A stretch of DNA of 64,000 nt. Origin: Paraeggerthella hongkongensis (GTDB lineage Bacteria > Actinomycetota > Coriobacteriia > Coriobacteriales > Eggerthellaceae). The notes beneath the pieces are model-generated. The model did no database searches, had not been told where the DNA came from, and saw only the letters and a list, made by a program, of their open reading frames with translations. Where the stretch lies: assembly GCF_003340345.1 (NCBI RefSeq), contig NZ_PPTQ01000006.1:62001-126000 (forward strand), read 5' to 3'. Within the stretch, counting starts at the first letter, position 1. Each line of letters begins with the position of its first letter. The position numbers and the translations under genes were made by a program. Positions 13,626 to 45,055 of this stretch are shown piece after piece.

Positions 13626-14100
13626 CAACCCGAAAACGGCGGCCGTGCTCACGCCGTACAGGGACAGAGATCCGTTGTTGCCTACGTATACGCCAGCGCC
13701 TTTCGTGCATTCCAGATGGTTCTTTCCCTCAAACCACACTTCGCAGGCCTCCTAGGATCCCGTTTGCACCAGAGCGCCCCAAACATTGTTCGTTTTAATG
13801 GAGACGTTTCTCAAAACGACATAAGGCGAGCTTCCCTTTACAACGATGTTCCAGTCCGTTTGACCGACGCCTTCGGCCATGGAAATGGTGTACTCCTGAT
13901 AGCACACGGCAGAATCGCTGCGCCCAATCACGACCAGACTTGTGTCGTCAACGTAGTAATCGTTGCCGAACACAGCCGGATTTCCATCTTTGCCTACAAC
14001 AACGAACGGAAGATCGGTGGGAGCCTCGTCATCAGCTTTTGTCGCTTGATCAGGATCTTCCGGGAGCACCGCGCTCGGAGGCGCCTCGGACAGAGCGCTT
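13527..14100 (-). pseudogene. Fragment of a beta-strand-rich surface protein
   Basis: One frame reads NIVVKGSSPYVVLRNVSIKT, meets an in-frame TAG at 13752-13754, then continues EVWFEGKNHLECTKGAGVYV with GNNGSLSLYG. Alternating N/G-rich strands of this kind occur in right-handed beta-helix or carbohydrate-binding surface proteins. No start, signal peptide or anchor remains. It is joined in frame to the NTF2-like remnant upstream and runs into the phosphatase fragment downstream. These joints look like deletion scars. Confidence 0.5.
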
Positions 14101-14557
14101 TCCAAGCGATCTGAAGGGGGGTTGGACACGTGGTAATGGCGAATCTTCGGCGAAGACCCTCCAACGTCCCATACGAACGTAAAGCGCTGCTCCTGCGCAA
14201 GCACTTGCCCGGACGAAGGACGCTGAAGCCCAGGTAGCTACCCGCCGTCACGCAGAGCTCCGCAGCCGCAGCGACGGGCACGTAGCGCTCGCCCGCCAGC
14301 ACCACGCACGGGCGCTCCCTTGCGATCTCCTCCATTTGGCAGCGAAACTCGTCGCGGAAAACGACGGATTGGTCCTCCTGCACGCCTATCCACAGGAAGT
14401 CCTCGGCCAAGCGGTCGACGCACCACGCCACTTCGCCGTTCCAAAAGCGATGGACGAGCTCTTTGGTCAGCAAAAGAGCCTCGCCGACGAACGGGTTTGC
14501 GTCGGGCGAGTCCTCGAGAACCGTCGTCTCGGACGAGTTGTTGCATGGCAAATTCAT
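14100..14557 (-). pseudogene. NTF2-like domain of a LytTR-type regulator, frameshifted
   Basis: The frame begins MNLPCNNSSETTV at 14557 and includes LTKELVHRFWNGEVAWCVDR. After ELCVTAGSYLG it shifts frame near 14235 and continues FTFVWDVGGSSPKIRHYHVS. This matches the N-terminal half of the intact regulator at 18304-19038 (TYVWAPTPDGPRIVHLHVSN). The LytTR half is missing. A -10-like TATACT lies about six bases before the start, suggesting the parent gene was leaderless. Confidence 0.65.
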
Positions 14558-14607
14558 GCACCTAGTATAAAAGGATGCCAATGCCTATTAGGGGCTTGGT
14601 GCAGAGG

Positions 14608-14648: not shown

Positions 14649-17600
14649 TTAGCTACGGTGTGTTGCGGCTCCTTCCACTCGTTCCCGACGTCGCGCCGCT
14701 TGCGTCGCCACGGCCAGGCAAGCCAAGGTCGAAAGCGCCAGGGCGCCTACCGCCGCCGTCGCCGGCGCCGCGGTGTCGCCCGTGCGCACAAGGGACTTCG
14801 GCCCGTCGCCCTGTTCGGTCGTTCCGGGTGCCGGCAGAGGCTCGGGTTCGACCGCGGCCCCCGTCTTTATCAGGATGCGACCGGCGCCGTTCTCGTTGGC
14901 GTAGACGGAATCGGCGCGTATCACGCCGTCCAGGTCGTTCTGCATGAAGGAGATGAGCGCCTCGTAATCGAGGCCCTGCTCGGACACGAGCACCTTCGCG
15001 TCCTTGAACATGGAGAACCCGTCGCCGCCGTCTTGCAGCAGGTAGGTGATGGACGACACGGTGTAGGTTTTGCCCAGGTCGATGGGTTCGCCGCCCACGC
15101 GCACGTTCTGCACGCGCCGCGCCCCCTCGATGCCGGCAAAGACGCCCTTCGCGTCCAGCTTCACGGGCGACGGGATGTCGGAGCGTATCTCGTAGGCAAG
15201 CCCCGAGGTTTGCAGCAGCCCGCCGTTGGGTTCGGGGCACAGGCGCGCACCCATTTCCAGCGCATCGACGATGGTCTGGCCGGTGGCCTCCACCTTGCAG
15301 AGCGTGTTGCCGAACGGGAGCACCGCGATGGCGTCGCCGTACGTGATGTCGCCCACGGCTACGTCCGAGCGGATGCCGCCCCCGTTCATGAGGCCGATGT
15401 CGGCGCCGAGCGATGCGCGGACGGCATCGGCCGCGAGATCGCCCAGGTTCGTCTCATGCATGCGCACGGCCCAGCTATGCTGCGCGTCGTTCTCCACGGC
15501 CACCAGCTTGACCTCGGTGCGGGCGACCACCTGGTCCAGCGTCTCGCTCAGCTTGCCCTCGATGTCCTTGACGAAGGCGACGGTGTCGGGATCCTGTGCG
15601 ACGGGCGGCTCCACCAGCCGCGCTTCGATCTGCCCCGTCGCGGGATGGATGATCACCTCGCCGTAGGTTTGCAGCTGCGTGCCGGTTTGCGCCAGCAGCA
15701 CGTCCTTGCCCGCCTTGTTGGCGACGTGCTGCTCGTACTGCTCGTGGGAGTGGCCGTCGATGAACACGTCGATGCCCGTGGTGTTCGCGATAACGGTATC
15801 CGAACGCCAGTGCGTGGCGACCCCCGACTCGCCCAGGTGACCGATTGCCACCACGTAATCGGCCCCGTCCGCGCGCGCGTCGTCGACGGTTTGCTGGACG
15901 CGGTCGTACAGCTTCTGCCCCGTCTCGTCTTCGCAGAAGCCGTAAAGGTAGGCGCCGTTCGCATCCTTGAAGTGCGCCGGATTCGATTTGGTCAATGACT
16001 CGGGCGTGGAGATGCCCACGTAGGCTACGCGCACGTTGCCGTACGTTTCGATCACGTAAGGCGAGAACTCGGTTGCGCCCGTTTTCAGGTTGTCGAAGTT
16101 GCATGATAGATAGGTGGCGTTCGAGCGATCGACGAGCGTGCGCAGCTGGTCCATCCCGTAGTCGAACTCGTGGTTTCCGGGTATGGCCAGGTCGTAGCCT
16201 ACCTGGTTCATAATGTCCACCAGGTCGGCCCCCTGCGAGAGCGTTCCCAGGGGCTTGCCCTGCACGGCATCGCCCGCGTCCACGAGGGTGACGTTGTCGG
16301 CGCCGTATTTCGCTTCCGCATCCTTCAGCGCTTGGGAAACCCCGGCATACCCGATGCTCGTGGCCTGGCCGGTTTCCTTGTCGAAGGTTTGGTCGACGCC
16401 GCAATGCACGTCGTTGGTGTGCAGGATGGCGATGGGCGTGTCCTGCCCTGCGGGCGTGTCGACCGTGTACGCCTTCAGCAGGGCATTGCCCGCCGTGTAG
16501 CCGGCTTCGTCCTCGAGCAGGTTCTTGCGGGCCATGTCGTGCCAGCCGGTCGCTCCCGCGTCAGTATAGTAGGTTTGTCCGGCTGCGCAGTCGATGGCGA
16601 CACGGCTCATGCTTGCATCGTCGATTTCGGCGAGCATGAGGTAGTTTCCGTTGAGGGCCTTCGCGGAGGCAACCACCGAGAAGGTGTCGCCCGCTATCAC
16701 GGGAAACGCAGCGTCGCCCAGGTCGATGGTAGTGTAACCGGCATTGGCTTCGGTGAGCGTCGTGTGCCACTTCAACGTGCCGCTTTGCGGGTTCAGCGTC
16801 CCGTCGTCGGTCAGGCCGGTGGGATTGCGGTAGACGGCGATGTCCACTTGAGAACAGGCCGTGGGCAGAAACACGCTGGCAGCCTGCACGGTCTCGTTGC
16901 CGCGCGCCTCGAATACGTTGGCGAACTGGATGCGCTCGGTGTTGACGAACCCTGCCTCGCCGACGCCCACCCCGTCGTACTGGTAGATGCCGTCGTAAAC
17001 ATGATCGGTCCCGTTGGCGTCGTAGGCCGCCTGCTCCGCCTGGTAGGATGTGGGATTCGAGAAGCTGGTGTCGTAGTAGGACAGGTAGAAGTAGCCGTCC
17101 TTGTGCCCCGGCGCCTGGGTGCCCCAACTGTTCTTGACGATCCAGGCGCCGTCGCCTTGCGGCGTGGTGGAGAAGTTCTCCTTCGGAAAGTTGTCGTCCC
17201 ATCCGACGATGCTCACTTCGTGATTCGCCAACCATTCGGCGGCTTCGGTCGTTTTGTTGTAGTAGAAAGCGCTCGTCGCGGGGTTCCAGTTGTCCTTCGG
17301 CGCGGCTTCATTGCCCGCGATCGCATCGTCGGCGCAGAACGACATGTCCACGACGCCGTTTTCCATAAGACATGTCTTGATGGCGTCGACGGCGCTGCTG
17401 TCGTACCTATGCTCCAAGGTAAACGACCCGTCTCCGGACTCCTGCCAGGTGTACACGTTGGGCTCGGGAAGGAACACGACGTTCTGCACGTGCAGGTCGG
17501 ACTGGGTGCGCAGGGCGGCGTTCGGCGCACCCATGTTGGCGTCGTCGGTGTACGGGGCCTTCTGCTCGTCCACGGCGCCGTACCAGCGCATGAGCGTGGC

Positions 17601-18155
17601 GGCAGACAGGGCCCGCGTCCCGCCCGCGTCGTAGTCGGATCGGCCCGTGGTGTTGAGGAACGTGTCGCCACCCGCCCACAGGCTGTCGTCGGCGTTGTCG
17701 TCCGCACCGTTGTACGTGAACCACGCCAGATGGCGCTCGGATAGGTCAGGATGGCCAGGAGCGCCCGCAGCATGGCCCTCGACCAGCAGGTTCGACTCGA
17801 GCGACGACAATGCGCCGAACGACCAGCAGCTGCCGAAGGGGCTCTGGTTCTTGACGGCGGTCGAGAGGATCGCCCCGCTTGTTCCCACCGTGCGCAGGTC
17901 GTAAGAGGACGGAAGGGCCGTCCGCGCGTTGGCTCCCGATGCGGGGTTGAGCAGGGTGGGGTCGAACAGGCTGAACACGGGGCCGCGTTCGGTTTCGATC
18001 GTGCGTCCGAGCGGCTGAAGCGTGCCAGTGCCGGCGCTGCCGGGATCGGCGGAAGCGGGCAGGGGGAGCAATGCGACGGCAAGCGCGAGAGCGAGCGCGA
18101 TGGCGCGCGCCGTGCGTCCGAGAGTGCCGAGCGGGTTGCAGGAAGTCTTCTTCAT
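14649..18155 (-). CDS. Secreted papain-like cysteine protease fused to a 5'-nucleotidase, wall-anchored
   Basis: About 1168 residues from ATG 18155, chosen because AGAGGAACC precedes it and a signal peptide follows (residues 1-36, cleavage near ASA-DP). Residues 85-345 are a C1A-type protease with C110 (GSCWSFG), H312 (NHEVSIVGW) and N342 (VKNSWGT). A lectin-like beta region spans about 380-570. From about 575 there is a UshA-type metallophosphatase (LHTNDVHCG, DAGDAVQG, GNHEFDYG, GHSHEQYE) and its C-terminal domain (NGGGIRSD). It ends with LVRTGD, a hydrophobic helix and RRRER, a sortase-type anchor. It should degrade peptides and scavenge nucleotides on the cell surface. Confidence 0.9.
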   Translation of the reverse strand: MKKTSCNPLGTLGRTARAIALALALAVALLPLPASADPGSAGTGTLQPLGRTIETERGPVFSLFDPTLLNPASGANARTALPSSYDLRTVGTSGAILSTAVKNQSPFGSCWSFGALSSLESNLLVEGHAAGAPGHPDLSERHLAWFTYNGADDNADDSLWAGGDTFLNTTGRSDYDAGGTRALSAATLMRWYGAVDEQKAPYTDDANMGAPNAALRTQSDLHVQNVVFLPEPNVYTWQESGDGSFTLEHRYDSSAVDAIKTCLMENGVVDMSFCADDAIAGNEAAPKDNWNPATSAFYYNKTTEAAEWLANHEVSIVGWDDNFPKENFSTTPQGDGAWIVKNSWGTQAPGHKDGYFYLSYYDTSFSNPTSYQAEQAAYDANGTDHVYDGIYQYDGVGVGEAGFVNTERIQFANVFEARGNETVQAASVFLPTACSQVDIAVYRNPTGLTDDGTLNPQSGTLKWHTTLTEANAGYTTIDLGDAAFPVIAGDTFSVVASAKALNGNYLMLAEIDDASMSRVAIDCAAGQTYYTDAGATGWHDMARKNLLEDEAGYTAGNALLKAYTVDTPAGQDTPIAILHTNDVHCGVDQTFDKETGQATSIGYAGVSQALKDAEAKYGADNVTLVDAGDAVQGKPLGTLSQGADLVDIMNQVGYDLAIPGNHEFDYGMDQLRTLVDRSNATYLSCNFDNLKTGATEFSPYVIETYGNVRVAYVGISTPESLTKSNPAHFKDANGAYLYGFCEDETGQKLYDRVQQTVDDARADGADYVVAIGHLGESGVATHWRSDTVIANTTGIDVFIDGHSHEQYEQHVANKAGKDVLLAQTGTQLQTYGEVIIHPATGQIEARLVEPPVAQDPDTVAFVKDIEGKLSETLDQVVARTEVKLVAVENDAQHSWAVRMHETNLGDLAADAVRASLGADIGLMNGGGIRSDVAVGDITYGDAIAVLPFGNTLCKVEATGQTIVDALEMGARLCPEPNGGLLQTSGLAYEIRSDIPSPVKLDAKGVFAGIEGARRVQNVRVGGEPIDLGKTYTVSSITYLLQDGGDGFSMFKDAKVLVSEQGLDYEALISFMQNDLDGVIRADSVYANENGAGRILIKTGAAVEPEPLPAPGTTEQGDGPKSLVRTGDTAAPATAAVGALALSTLACLAVATQAARRRERVEGAATHRS

Positions 18156-18303: not shown

Positions 18304-19038
18304 CTACCATTGCGCACCAGCCGCGGCAAGCGATTGCTTGACCTCGCGATAGCGCCGCTCGGCAATGGGATATTCCGAGCCGTCGTCGAGCTTCGCCCGA
18401 TGCCCCTCTACGCCGACGATCCGATCGCGATGCACAAGGCGGCCGCGATGAAGCCGAAGGAAATCATGTGCGGGCAACTGGCTCTCAAGATCCGCCAAGG
18501 CCACACGCATGGGAAACGCGCCGTGGGCATGCCTGACAACGCATCGGGGACCTTCCGATTCGATCGCGTACAGCTCGTTAGGGTGCAAAACATGAAGATC
18601 CCCGCCCACATCGCGGAAATTGATCTTTCCCGCGACCGAACCCTGAGCATCGAAATGCTCGTATATGAACTCGATGACGTTTTCTTTCGAATCGAGCGAC
18701 GGCAGGAGCGGGTTCGCGTCGGCGGCATTCGAAACGTGCAGGTGGACGATGCGCGGCCCGTCCGGCGTGGGCGCCCATACATAGGTTGCGTGCTGCTCGA
18801 ACGGCATGCTCCGCTCGCCGTCGACCGACATGACGAACGGCGTGTAACAGGCTGACACGATCCACGTGCCCGCCCGCTGGCCCACCCACTCGACGTCGTC
18901 GGCCATATGCGCCAAAGCGACGTCCATGTTGCGCGTAACGAAATGGTTGACAAGGGATTGCCTCGACAGCTCGATGACGGCACGCTCTTTGGGAAGCCGT
19001 TCGACACCTCGCGTTTGATCGCTCCGAGCTTCAGTCAC
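18304..19038 (-). CDS. LytTR-family transcriptional regulator with NTF2-like N-terminal domain
   Basis: About 244 residues. The first 110 form an NTF2/SnoaL-like fold (SLVNHFVTRNMDVALAHMAD ... TYVWAPTPDGPRIVHLHVSN). The last 100 are a LytTR DNA-binding domain (HPNELYAIESEGPRCVVRH, LPAHDFLRLHRGRLVHRDRI, ERRYREVKQSL). A GTG start at 19038 is chosen because AAAGGAGGTGG lies five bases before it. Upstream ATGs have no ribosome site. Replacing a receiver by an NTF2-like domain suggests direct sensing of a small ligand. It ends about 150 bases upstream of the protease-nucleotidase gene, its likeliest target. Confidence 0.88.
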   Translation of the reverse strand: MTEARSDQTRGVERLPKERAVIELSRQSLVNHFVTRNMDVALAHMADDVEWVGQRAGTWIVSACYTPFVMSVDGERSMPFEQHATYVWAPTPDGPRIVHLHVSNAADANPLLPSLDSKENVIEFIYEHFDAQGSVAGKINFRDVGGDLHVLHPNELYAIESEGPRCVVRHAHGAFPMRVALADLESQLPAHDFLRLHRGRLVHRDRIVGVEGHRAKLDDGSEYPIAERRYREVKQSLAAAGAQW

Positions 19039-19230
19039 GCAACCACCTCCTTTCGCAATGTCGAAAAAGAGCATGACACAAACGCCGCGCCCGAGCAAGA
19101 ACTCCAAGGGCAGCGGTCACCGTTCCGCGCCACGAGCGATCTGCATGGTCACCTGCATGATGGACGTTCGCTTTCATCCCGCCCTCGCTTCGGCCGCACG
19201 TTCGACTACCCTTGGAATCGTCAGCGCACT

Positions 19231-40942: not shown

Positions 40943-42868
40943 ATGGCCTATCCAATGACCCGTCGATCGTTCTGCGCTCTATCCGCCGTCGCACTTGCAA
41001 CGCTGGGAATTCCCGGACGCGCGCTCGCCGACGAGATCGAAGCCGCCGCGGCACCCGGCCCCATCGTCATCGTCCATACGAACGACGTGCATTGCGCCGT
41101 GGACGAGAATCTGGGCTACGCGAAGCTGGCCGACTACGTGAAAACCGCACGCTCGACCTACGGAGGCGACAACGTCACGCTGGTCGACGCGGGCGATGCC
41201 GTGCAGGGCAAGGCCATGGGCACGCTCTCGAAGGGCGAGTACCTGATCGACATCATGAAACAGTGTCGCTACGATATGGCCATCCCCGGCAATCACGAGT
41301 TCGACTACGGAATGGACCAGTTCAACGTGCTGGTTTCGCGTGCAAAGGACGCATCGGACCCGCAGGCCGGGCCAATCCAGTACCTGTCGTGCAACTTCAC
41401 CGACCTGCGCACGGGCAACCTCATGCTCGACCCGTACGCCATGCGCACGTACGAAACGTCCGCCGGGCAGAAGCGCGTGGCGTTCGTGGGCATTTGCACG
41501 CCCGAGTCGCTGACGAAATCTTCGCCTGCGCATTTCCAGGACCAAAGCGGCGCGTACGTCTACGGGTTTTGCGAAGACGACTCGGGTTCCAAGCTGTACG
41601 CAGCCGTGCAGAGCGCCGTCGATGCAGCGCGCGAGGCCGGCGCGGACTACGTGGTTGCCATGGGGCACCTGGGACGCTCCGGCGTGACCCCGCGTTGGAG
41701 CAGCAGCAGCGTGGTGGCGAACACCTCCGGTATCGACGTGATGATCGACGGGCACTCTCACGAAGAGTACGTGGACACGCTGCTCAACAAGGACGGCGTT
41801 CCAGTGCTGGTCACGCAAACGGGAACCCAGCTTGAAAGCATCGGGCGAGTCATCATCGATCCCGCCGCCAACAGGATTGCAGCAAGCGCGGGCGCCTGCG
41901 CAGGCGAGCTGATAACGGCGTGGGACGGCATCGACGCAGCAACGGCGGCGGTCGTCAACAACAAGAAAGCCCAGATAGAAGCAATAACGGGGCAGAAGGT
42001 AGGCTATTCGGACGTACGGCTTATCGCAACCGAAAGCGACAACTACACCTGGGCCGTTCGTCAGCGCGAGACGAACCTAGGCGATTTCGTGGCGGACGCG
42101 TACCTGGCCCTCGCCTGGCATGGCGGCATAATGGCCGAGGTGGCGCTTGTCAACGGCGGCGGCATCCGCGCGAACATCGAACCGGGAACGATCACGTACG
42201 GAGACGTTATCGACGTGCAGCCCTACAGCAACCAGCTCTGCTACATAGAAACCAAGGGCCAGAACATTCTGGATGCACTTGAAATGGGCGCGAGCAAGCT
42301 ACCCGAAGGAAGCGGCGGATTCATGCAGACGTCTGGCGTAACCTACGCCGTGCGCACCGACGTGCCCTCGTCCATCGAGATCGACGACAAGGGAAGCTTC
42401 GTGCGCGTGGCCGGAGAATACCGCGTGCGAGACGTGCTGGTGGACGGACGGCCGCTCGATACGGAAAGAACGTACAAGATGGTGTCGCACACCTATATGA
42501 TCATGGAGGGCGGCGACGGCATGACCATGTTCAAGGCAGACGATCCCGTGCTGCTCGACGTGGACAACGCCGCGTTGATCGAGTACCTGAAATACGACTT
42601 GAAAGGCGTCATCGGCAGCGAATACGCAAGCGAAGGCGGTCAAGGGCGCATTGCCATCAAGAACGGTCCCGATCCTGCACCCGAGCCAGAGCCCCAGCCC
42701 CAGCCCGAACCGATGCCGGTGCCGACGGCCAAGCCCGACCCCAAGCCGCTCGCACGCACTGGCGACTCCGCCGAAGCCGTGGTCATTGGAGCCGCCGTGA
42801 CGGCCGTTGCAGCAGGCGCCGTCGCCGTGAGCGCACGGGACAAGCTGGACGCACATCAGGAGCTGTAA
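40943..42868 (+). CDS. Secreted 5'-nucleotidase with Tat signal and LARTGD wall anchor
   Basis: 641 residues. A Tat-type signal (TRRSFCALSAVALATLGIPG, cleavage near ALA-DE) is followed by a UshA-type metallophosphatase: VHTNDVHCAVDE, DAGDAVQGKAMG, GNHEFDYG and GHSHEEYV. The 5'-nucleotidase C-terminal domain has NGGGIRAN and GGDGMTMF. Then come a Pro/Glu-rich linker, LARTGD, a hydrophobic helix and a short tail. It resembles the nucleotidase half of the protein at 14649-18155, so the cell makes two surface nucleotidases, exported by different routes. Confidence 0.92.
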   Translation: MAYPMTRRSFCALSAVALATLGIPGRALADEIEAAAAPGPIVIVHTNDVHCAVDENLGYAKLADYVKTARSTYGGDNVTLVDAGDAVQGKAMGTLSKGEYLIDIMKQCRYDMAIPGNHEFDYGMDQFNVLVSRAKDASDPQAGPIQYLSCNFTDLRTGNLMLDPYAMRTYETSAGQKRVAFVGICTPESLTKSSPAHFQDQSGAYVYGFCEDDSGSKLYAAVQSAVDAAREAGADYVVAMGHLGRSGVTPRWSSSSVVANTSGIDVMIDGHSHEEYVDTLLNKDGVPVLVTQTGTQLESIGRVIIDPAANRIAASAGACAGELITAWDGIDAATAAVVNNKKAQIEAITGQKVGYSDVRLIATESDNYTWAVRQRETNLGDFVADAYLALAWHGGIMAEVALVNGGGIRANIEPGTITYGDVIDVQPYSNQLCYIETKGQNILDALEMGASKLPEGSGGFMQTSGVTYAVRTDVPSSIEIDDKGSFVRVAGEYRVRDVLVDGRPLDTERTYKMVSHTYMIMEGGDGMTMFKADDPVLLDVDNAALIEYLKYDLKGVIGSEYASEGGQGRIAIKNGPDPAPEPEPQPQPEPMPVPTAKPDPKPLARTGDSAEAVVIGAAVTAVAAGAVAVSARDKLDAHQEL

Positions 42869-43090: not shown

Positions 43091-45055
43091 TTAGGCCATA
43101 AGCTTCGTTACTGCGTTTGCGTAAGCCACGGGATCGTCGATGGGCATGCCCTCCACGATCAGCGCCTGGTTGTACAGGATGTCGGCGTAGAGCTTCACCT
43201 TATCGGCATCGCCGCCCGCCTGCGCTTCTTTCAGCACCTCGAACACAGGGTGCTTCGCGTTGATCTCCAGCACGCGCTCGGATTTCGGGCCTTCGGCCCC
43301 ATCGGGCATCTGAGCCATGATGCGCTCCATCTCAAGCGACACCGGACCCGCCGCCGTAATGCACGCGGGCGCATCACTCAAGCGCGACGACACGCTCACC
43401 TTCGTCACGGCATCGCCCAGAGCATCCTTCATGGCCGCGAACAGGGTCTCGTTCTCCTTGGCGGTTTCTTCGGCTTCCTTCTTCTCTTCCTCGGAGGCCA
43501 GATCCAAATCGCCCGAAGCCACGTTCTTGAGCTCCTTGGGGCCGGTGCCCTCGATGGGCTTGCCGTCGGCGTCAAGCTCGGGCTCGGGACCGTACGCCAT
43601 CATCGACTGGAAGCAGAACTCGTCCACGTCGCGCGTGCACAGCAGCACGTCGTAGCCCTTCTCGAGCACCGTCTTCACGATGGGCATCTTGCCCAAGCGC
43701 TCGATGCTCTCGCCCGCAGCGTAGTAGATGGCCTTCTGATCAGCCGGTGCGGCTTCCAGGTACTCGTCAAGCGTGACCAGTTTCTGCTGCTTGGCGGAGT
43801 AGAACAGCAGCAGCTCAGCCAGCTCGTCCTTCAACATACCGTAGCTGGTGTAAATGCCGAATTCCAAGCCGCGGCCGAAATCCTCGAAGAACTTCTCGTA
43901 CGTCTCGCGGTCGTTGTCGCGCATCTTCTTGAGCTCGGAGGTGATCTTCTTCTCGATCTTCTTGGCAATGGCGCGCAGCTGGCTGTTGTGCTGCAACGTC
44001 TCGCGCGAAATGTTGAGCGTCAGATCCTGGCTGTCCACCACGCCGCGCACGAAGTTGTAATGGTCGGGCAAAAGCTCCTCGCACTTCTCCATGATGAGCA
44101 CGTTGGAGCTGTACAGGGCCAGGCCCTTCTTGAAGTCCTTGCTGTACAGGTCGTACGGAGCGCGGCCCGGAATGAACAGCAGCGCGTCGTAGCTGAGCGC
44201 GCCCTCGGCATGAATGCTGAACGTACGCGCCGGGTCGGAGAAGTCGTGGAAGTCGGTCTTGTAGAACTCGTTGTACTCCTCGTCGGTAACTTCGGAGGCG
44301 CGGCGCTTCCAAATGGGAATCATCGAGTTGATGGTTTCGACCTCGGTGTAATCCTCGTACTCGGGCGTGTAGTCGTCACCCGCATCCTCGGGCTTCGGCT
44401 TCTCGCGCGTCTTGGAAACTTCCATCTGCACGGGGTAGCGCACATAATTGCTGTAGCGCTTGATCAGGTTCTTCAAGCCGTACTCGGACAGGAACGTATC
44501 GTAGTTGTCGTCGTCGGTGTTGTCCTTGAGCGTAAGGATGACGTCGGTGCCGTGCCCGTCGCGCTGCGCCTCGGAAATGCTGTAGCCCTCAACGCCGTCG
44601 CTTTCCCAAGCCCACGCTTCGTCGCTGCCGTACGCCTTCGAAACCACGCGCACGCTCTTGGCCACCATGAAAGCGGAGTAGAAACCCACGCCGAACTGGC
44701 CGATGATGTCCACATCCTCGCCCTGCACCTCGGCGTTATCGGCCTTGAAGGCCATGCTGTCGGAATGAGCGATAGTGCCCAGATTGAGATCCAGGTCGTC
44801 CTTGGTCATGCCCAAGCCGCTGTCGCTGACGGTAACGGTGCGCGCATCCTTGTCGAACGACACCTGAATGCGCAGCTCGTCCTTGCTCAGCTGGATGTCC
44901 TTGTCGGTAAGGCTTTTGAAGTACAGCTTATCCACCGCGTCGGACGCATTCGAGATAAGCTCGCGAAGGAATATCTCGCGGTTCGTGTAAATGGAGTTAA
45001 TCATGAGGTCGAGCAGTTTCTTGCTCTCTGTCTTGAACTTGCGCATGGTCGGCAT
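43091..45055 (-). CDS. htpG: Molecular chaperone HtpG (Hsp90)
   Basis: 654 residues with the Hsp90 order: N-terminal ATPase (ELISNASDAVDKLYF, SDSGLGMTKDDL, GQFGVGFYSAFMVA), middle domain (the SRETLQ loop) and a short C-terminal dimerisation part. AAAGGGAGCG precedes the ATG. A typical promoter and a CIRCE-like operator lie 77-137 bases upstream, so HrcA control under heat stress is likely. The acidic linker (KPKPEDAGDDYTPEYEDYTE) is within family range. Confidence 0.96.
   Translation of the reverse strand: MPTMRKFKTESKKLLDLMINSIYTNREIFLRELISNASDAVDKLYFKSLTDKDIQLSKDELRIQVSFDKDARTVTVSDSGLGMTKDDLDLNLGTIAHSDSMAFKADNAEVQGEDVDIIGQFGVGFYSAFMVAKSVRVVSKAYGSDEAWAWESDGVEGYSISEAQRDGHGTDVILTLKDNTDDDNYDTFLSEYGLKNLIKRYSNYVRYPVQMEVSKTREKPKPEDAGDDYTPEYEDYTEVETINSMIPIWKRRASEVTDEEYNEFYKTDFHDFSDPARTFSIHAEGALSYDALLFIPGRAPYDLYSKDFKKGLALYSSNVLIMEKCEELLPDHYNFVRGVVDSQDLTLNISRETLQHNSQLRAIAKKIEKKITSELKKMRDNDRETYEKFFEDFGRGLEFGIYTSYGMLKDELAELLLFYSAKQQKLVTLDEYLEAAPADQKAIYYAAGESIERLGKMPIVKTVLEKGYDVLLCTRDVDEFCFQSMMAYGPEPELDADGKPIEGTGPKELKNVASGDLDLASEEEKKEAEETAKENETLFAAMKDALGDAVTKVSVSSRLSDAPACITAAGPVSLEMERIMAQMPDGAEGPKSERVLEINAKHPVFEVLKEAQAGGDADKVKLYADILYNQALIVEGMPIDDPVAYANAVTKLMA

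Follow-up and report, generated by a model that had tools for sequence, protein, structure and literature searches.

We analysed a 64,000-nucleotide stretch of Paraeggerthella hongkongensis DNA (NCBI RefSeq assembly GCF_003340345.1, contig NZ_PPTQ01000006.1, positions 62,001 to 126,000 of the forward strand; 'the window') and find that the reverse-strand open frame at positions 14649-18155 is a single, real gene for a probable two-enzyme surface protein, in which a Cwp84-like protease, a Lectin_like domain and a CD73/UshA-type 5'-nucleotidase are joined in one chain. The fusion is conserved, ordinary in its parts and unusual as a combination; the union of these ordinary component families, in a few related bacteria only, looks new. 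Two well-known surface enzyme families thereby stand in one protein that looks wall-displayed; were both sites active, proteolysis at the surface and dephosphorylation of nucleotides would be linked in the product of one gene. Searches of the literature available under open licence in PubMed Central gave no account of a protease-nucleotidase fusion, and a paper on the papain family contains no word starting with 'nucleotidase' (PMC10380794).

The open frame coincides exactly with the segment that a first-pass annotation had proposed as a fusion gene, and no stop codon or frameshift separates the halves. The frame starts with an ATG at 18155, preceded by a purine-rich AGAGGAA, and runs uninterrupted through 1168 codons to a stop codon at 14649-14651 (residues are numbered here from the Met of that ATG). 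Four Pfam models each score above their curated cut-offs: Peptidase_C1 (48.7 bits), Lectin_like (PF18560; 73.4 bits vs. a cut-off of 27), Metallophos (45.4 bits) and 5_nucleotid_C (130.5 bits). Full-length homologues of the window protein (genome G000), with no internal stop, are present in G063 (84% identity), G070 (63%), G068 (62%) and G021 (60%). That the gene is an artefact of assembly or annotation has a practically negligible probability: a same-genus genome, G001, has separate halves only, as such an artefact might suggest, but full-length fusions occur in five genomes, three of them single-contig (G021, G068, and G070), and homologues 60-84% identical in four other genomes refute both an artefact and a chance reading.

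As the first-pass annotation had proposed, both active sites are complete in the single chain, with all catalytic residues present and identical in all five fusions. In the N-terminal half, these residues are Gln104, Cys110, His312 and Asn342, aligned across the five fusions with the window protein included; their roles we take to be those of the corresponding papain-family residues. The annotation had called this half a C1A protease; the papain-type assignment is borne out but was incomplete, having overlooked that the half is Cwp84-like and carries a Lectin_like domain. The N-terminal half matches the solved Cwp84 structure 4ci7 (E = 8e-20), the Lectin_like domain follows the protease directly and is the sole PF18560 match in its own genome, and the protease is preceded by a putative propeptide of ~40 residues with a TERGPxF motif conserved in all five fusions. 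Cwp84 of C. difficile consists of a propeptide, a cathepsin-L-like protease and a lectin-like domain (PMC4089489), and the fusion has in common with it (PDB 4ci7, 4d59) this order of parts, with a putative propeptide, and the Cys-His-Asn triad. Cwp84 is also described as bearing cell-wall-binding repeats (PMC4089489), whereas in the fusion the lectin-like domain runs into the nucleotidase and a sortase-type tail, and none of the eight Pfam rows of the fusion protein is a cell-wall-binding repeat. The fusion is therefore related to the catalytic half of Cwp84, not to full Cwp84.

In the nucleotidase half, Asp582, His584, Asp629, Asn661, His662, Asp665, His773, His802, His804, Arg898 and Arg929 are identical in the five fusions, and all 50 aligned nucleotidase rows (window row included) agree at the metal ligands, the dyad and the two arginines, with no metal ligand missing. 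We take these residues to be two-metal ligands, a His-Asp dyad and phosphate-binding arginines. A model of this half, folded with 49 relatives, has a mean predicted local distance difference test (pLDDT) score of 94.3 and superposes on an E. coli entry (3ive, Z = 39.4), a Thermus 5'-nucleotidase (2z1a, Z = 39.0), UshA (1ho5, Z = 36.5) and closed CD73 entries (Z of about 36-38); Foldseek also returns a CD73-type fold. Pfam and the model comparison together thus place Metallophos and 5_nucleotid_C domains in a CD73 fold. The scores against NCBIfam models fall below the cut-offs (UshA, 161.9 vs. 600 bits; Nt5e, the best match, 173 vs. 1050 bits), so that the nucleotidase half is a relative of these enzymes and no proven equivalent. 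At the first presumed base-stacking position, occupied here by Phe948, the 50 rows have F in 35, Y in 14 and W in 1; at the second, occupied by Leu1039, they have M in 26, L in 9 and W in 4, and at the adjacent Tyr1038 Y in 47 and F in 3. UshA and 2z1a carry a Phe four residues ahead of a GGDG motif in the alignments; presumably this Phe stacks on the base and is present in CD73 too, and the UshA numbering of the stacking aromatics is likewise assumed.

The fusion thus resembles CD73, UshA and 2z1a in the two domains of its fold and in its metal ligands, dyad and phosphate-binding arginines, and differs from them in sequence (about 21-29% identity), in the apparent shift of one stacking aromatic by one residue and in the attached protease. 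The wall-anchored streptococcal 5'-nucleotidases (Nt5e, SntA-D) are not known to carry a protease half. The fusion's nucleotidase half scores far under the Nt5e cut-off; the resemblance to the streptococcal enzymes, of which SntA-D are named in PMC11407386, lies in the combination of a 5'-nucleotidase with predicted export and a sortase-type signal. YfkN-type UshA-CpdB proteins are likewise natural fusions with an UshA-like domain, but their partner is another nucleotidase, not a protease (PMC8475336, PMC10454023).

The first-pass annotation had also proposed that the chain is exported and wall-anchored. A predicted signal peptide at the N-terminus agrees with export. As to the anchor, the sortase-type layout is upheld, with a signal followed by a hydrophobic stretch and an Arg-rich end, but the signal itself reads LVRTGD, of L[AV]xTGD type, and not LPXTG. 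Among 42 distinct L..TG[DEN] tails from the window and the fetched loci, a biased sample chosen for protease and nucleotidase families, 39 are of the L[AV]xTGD type (31 LAxTGD and 8 LVxTGD), 2 are LPxTGD and 1 is LSxTGD. LAXTG signals are known for class E sortases (PMC5148588). A PF04203 search of the genome gives a single sortase match, below the cut-off in that search and at the cut-off for the whole frame; the same match exceeds the NCBIfam cut-off for class B. Judged from the tail, the fusion is likely attached to the wall via LVRTGD by a sortase.

The joining had been thought uncommon, and the survey of relatives agrees: the full-length fusion is present in 5 of 138 genomes of the Eggerthellaceae, in four genera. 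A quality filter of ≥90% completeness and ≤5% contamination, which drops G068 (82% complete), leaves 4 of 92. The family assignment of the surveyed set follows from nucleotidase rows identical to those of named Eggerthellaceae records (G022/L035, G043/L100, G089/L042). A consistent two-gene arrangement of the orthologues is not seen: they are fused in these five genomes and elsewhere present as one half alone or as both halves apart; the latter applies to G001, in which a nucleotidase and a distant protease-lectin gene lie apart. Sampling of 396 genomes across the class, in a set that overlaps the family, gives the same five fusions and no other; together with the family count, this rules out that the class in general carries the fusion. 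No fusion was found in 391 Clostridia genomes (the class of G423; searched at E 1e-30) or in 16 genomes reached via other loci (searched at E 1e-8), one of which is a Gordonibacter. At most five candidate places per genome were scored for the family and two for the class sample and the Clostridia, and a very divergent fusion could escape. In 80 fetched loci no frame holds both domains, and among the loci compared, which are a few to 20 kb long, none but those of the fusions holds both halves; adjacent genes as the source of the fusion accordingly have no support. Protease matches that cross the position of the junction in G823 (to query residue 616) and G701 (to 595) belong to frames of 623 and 695 residues, too short for a nucleotidase; a match in G437 (to 602, the same place as in G089) belongs to a frame of 1018 residues with no nucleotidase row. 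Very long nucleotidase frames from six genomes have no protease match at E = 1e-3.

Nucleotidases outside a fusion are frequent in the family: by hand count, about 41 of the 138 genomes, fusions included, have a match to the nucleotidase half at E ≤ 1e-40. A TBLASTN survey with thresholds of score >150 and coverage >70% scored the Coriobacteriia, the class of this family, as being without ushA-like genes (PMC10454023). It follows that the UshA-type nucleotidases of the family either diverge too far from the probes of that survey or lie in genomes outside its set.

The five fusions share one common junction point, with a linker of 7-11 residues. In the nucleotidase tree, the fusions and a stand-alone nucleotidase of G021 form one group (94/91), in which the stand-alone gene lies beside G000 and G063 (99/95). 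In the protease-lectin tree, the fusions are joined in a group by stand-alone genes from G067 and G069 (100/99), and these two genes lie beside the fusions of G068, G070 and G021 (100/97). Compared with the first 40 residues of the G021 stand-alone nucleotidase, four fusions score 103, 102, 80 and 75, the best of 26 stand-alone C1 proteases scores 79, the best of 26 other stand-alone nucleotidases scores 48, and 300 shuffles (best-of-set scores) reach at most 55. These scores favour the reading that the G021 stand-alone nucleotidase bears a protease-type signal peptide, as expected after loss of a protease half. The trees, the shared junction point and the G021 signal peptide together favour one old fusion with later losses. 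In such a history, a protease-lectin gene would have lost its proline-rich anchor and run into a nucleotidase that had lost its signal peptide, and the nucleotidase half would later have been lost in the G067/G069 lineage and the protease half in G021. One old fusion followed by half-losses in two lineages is the most likely history on this comparison of sequences.

Taken as a whole, the reading that we favour, and hold to be moderately probable, is that the protein is a wall-displayed, two-activity scavenging ectoenzyme that arose by one old fusion with later half-losses. The signal peptide would export the chain and a sortase would anchor it at LVRTGD; removal of the short propeptide would free the protease cleft; the protease would trim proteins close to the cell, aided by the lectin-like domain, which would shape or dock the substrate; and the nucleotidase would split 5'-nucleotides into nucleosides and phosphate. 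Each site probably acts on molecules of its own, independently of the other, and both would be displayed together for scavenging of peptides, nucleosides and phosphate. Export, anchoring, propeptide removal, both activities and the scavenging use are all inferred from sequence and from likeness to known proteins. The fused and unfused relatives (G068 and G070 vs. G067 and G069, and the two G021 genes) make the value of the union directly testable.

Several observations weigh against this reading. The five fusions alone form no clade in either tree (approximately unbiased (AU) test of trees that hold the five together, p-AU = 0.077 for the nucleotidase and 0.021 for the protease), so that a single fusion requires later losses. 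The signal peptide of the G021 fusion scores just 43 against the G021 stand-alone nucleotidase, signal peptides are similar in make-up, one stand-alone protease (79) is level with the lower-scoring fusions, and the comparison left out 4 nucleotidase and 5 protease N-termini that the script could not pick. Folding of the whole chain yielded neither a dependable protease half (pLDDT mostly <50, because only nucleotidase relatives were supplied) nor a usable arrangement of the domains. Leu1039 at the usual aromatic site, with Tyr1038 beside it, leaves the preferred substrate uncertain, and it may differ from that of the known enzymes. Finally, the one sortase match that the genome search turned up is of class B, while the tails mostly read L[AV]xTGD.

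The first of these points bears on an alternative history with two independent fusions, of which one would have led to G000 and G063 and the other to G068, G070 and the fused gene of G021. In both trees, stand-alone genes fall among the fusions, and the AU test rejects a five-fusion clade for the protease half, both as two fusions would predict; against this history, a single junction point is common to both groups, and the signal peptides of four of the five fusions and of the G021 stand-alone gene are related. Since two gains take about as many steps as one gain plus losses, we regard two fusions as unlikely, though as a serious competitor to a single one.

Ratios of nonsynonymous to synonymous substitution (dN/dS), computed as simple Nei-Gojobori ratios with a purpose-written script for four fusion pairs, come to 0.32-0.51 (protease), 0.26-0.53 (lectin-like domain) and 0.15-0.31 (nucleotidase). 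All are below 1, which points to purifying selection throughout the protein, with the nucleotidase lowest. Sequence identities run the same way, at 91% for the nucleotidase vs. 78% for the protease between G000 and G063 and 93% vs. 79% between G070 and G068, and the protease half, which changes faster, might serve for targeting or for contact with the substrate. The stronger constraint on the nucleotidase half is what would be expected if the nucleotidase were the working enzyme and the protease-lectin half served as a lectin-based docking module or processed itself, by which the protein would be matured or shed; yet the protease active-site residues are intact in all five fusions, the linker is short and joined at one point, and the relatives G067 and G069 kept the protease without the nucleotidase, and we consider this division of labour rather improbable.

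The suggestion in the first-pass annotation that the protein may affect host purinergic signals is an argument by analogy, from the nucleotidases that other Gram-positive bacteria carry at their surface. In its strongest form, the protein would be a host-directed bacterial CD73 making adenosine at the gut surface, held on host glycoproteins by its protease-lectin half. The CD73-type fold of the model is consistent with such a role. So is the fact that, among NCBIfam models, the one for the surface ecto-5'-nucleotidase Nt5e scores highest, albeit far short of its cut-off, and surface nucleotidases of Streptococcus suis are reported to act through adenosine (PMC11407386). Nucleotide scavenging explains the fusion equally well, however, and the same genome has a second, stand-alone nucleotidase outside the fusion (40943..42868, forward strand; 54% identity to the fused half); the host-directed role is very doubtful. 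Scarcely more probable is a coupled ectoenzyme, in which the protease-lectin half would bring the nucleotidase to glycoproteins of host or microbial origin, or expose it there, for production of peptides and adenosine in one place, the fusion being a selected device that was assembled, passed between genera and taken apart by lineages.

Comparison of loci bears on exchange between genera. Gene order is shared between the loci of G068 and G070, and the neighbours of the G021 stand-alone nucleotidase are in synteny with that fusion locus, with local rearrangement; the G021 fusion is sited elsewhere and has no flank in common with G068 or G070 in the 20 kb compared. Identities between the G021 and G070 fusions are 79% (protease), 84% (lectin) and 86% (nucleotidase), and those between G068 and G070 are 79%, 85% and 93%, respectively. 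The protease and lectin parts of G021 and G070 are thus as close as those of G068 and G070, although HtpG identity is 80.5% for G021-G070 and 99.4% for G070-G068, which points to transfer of the fusion between two genera. Moreover, the nucleotidase half of G070 (locus L006) groups with G068 (L007; 98/95) and its protease half with G021 (L114; 99/94), and these differing nearest relatives are a hint of recombination inside the gene. G000 and G063 share, within the compared stretches, the fusion and an upstream LytTR regulator gene (65% over 295 columns). In the window, this LytTR-domain gene (18304-19107) shares the reverse strand with the fusion and lies some 150 bases upstream of it; its product may control the fusion.

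Features of the fusion gene in the window, with residue ranges of the encoded protein where available
Feature	Position	Strand	Basis
Whole fusion gene, 1168 residues + stop	14649..18155	-	Open frame; full-length homologues
Predicted signal peptide, about residues 1-36	18048..18155	-	Sequence by eye; compared with other N-termini
Short propeptide-like stretch, about residues 37-78, TERGPxF motif kept in 5/5 fusions	17922..18047	-	Alignment; putative role taken from Cwp84
C1A papain-type protease, about residues 79-365, Gln104/Cys110/His312/Asn342	17061..17921	-	Pfam; alignment; Cwp84 structure match
Lectin_like domain (PF18560)	16464..16988	-	Pfam, E = 3.1e-20
Junction: lectin-like end KAYT, 11 linker residues, nucleotidase AILHTND	16431..16463	-	Alignment
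Metallophos domain, metal ligands and His662-Asp665 dyad	15741..16427	-	Pfam; alignments
5_nucleotid_C domain (substrate binding), Arg898/Arg929/Phe948/Tyr1038	15000..15479	-	Pfam; alignment; model
LVRTGD sortase-type signal	14775..14792	-	Sequence; comparison of tails
Hydrophobic stretch and Arg-rich tail	14652..14774	-	Sequence

Downstream of the fusion, two overlapping reverse-strand frames (13752-14204 and 13994-14581) appear by eye to be one regulator-like gene broken by a frameshift; part of this pair resembles the intact LytTR gene, and neither frame has a Pfam match. Among the other loci, the family members at L124, L125, L126, L137 and L148 have two C1 protease domains within one frame, and L163-L167 encode very large Clostridia surface proteins with UshA-type domains. 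By eye, the tails of L163-L166 resemble S-layer homology repeats and that of L167, which has two nucleotidase stretches, is LysM-like. The stand-alone nucleotidase of the window has, by eye, a twin-arginine-like signal and adjoins htpG (43091-45055, reverse strand); in G001 and G053, too, a nucleotidase gene of that kind lies directly next to htpG.

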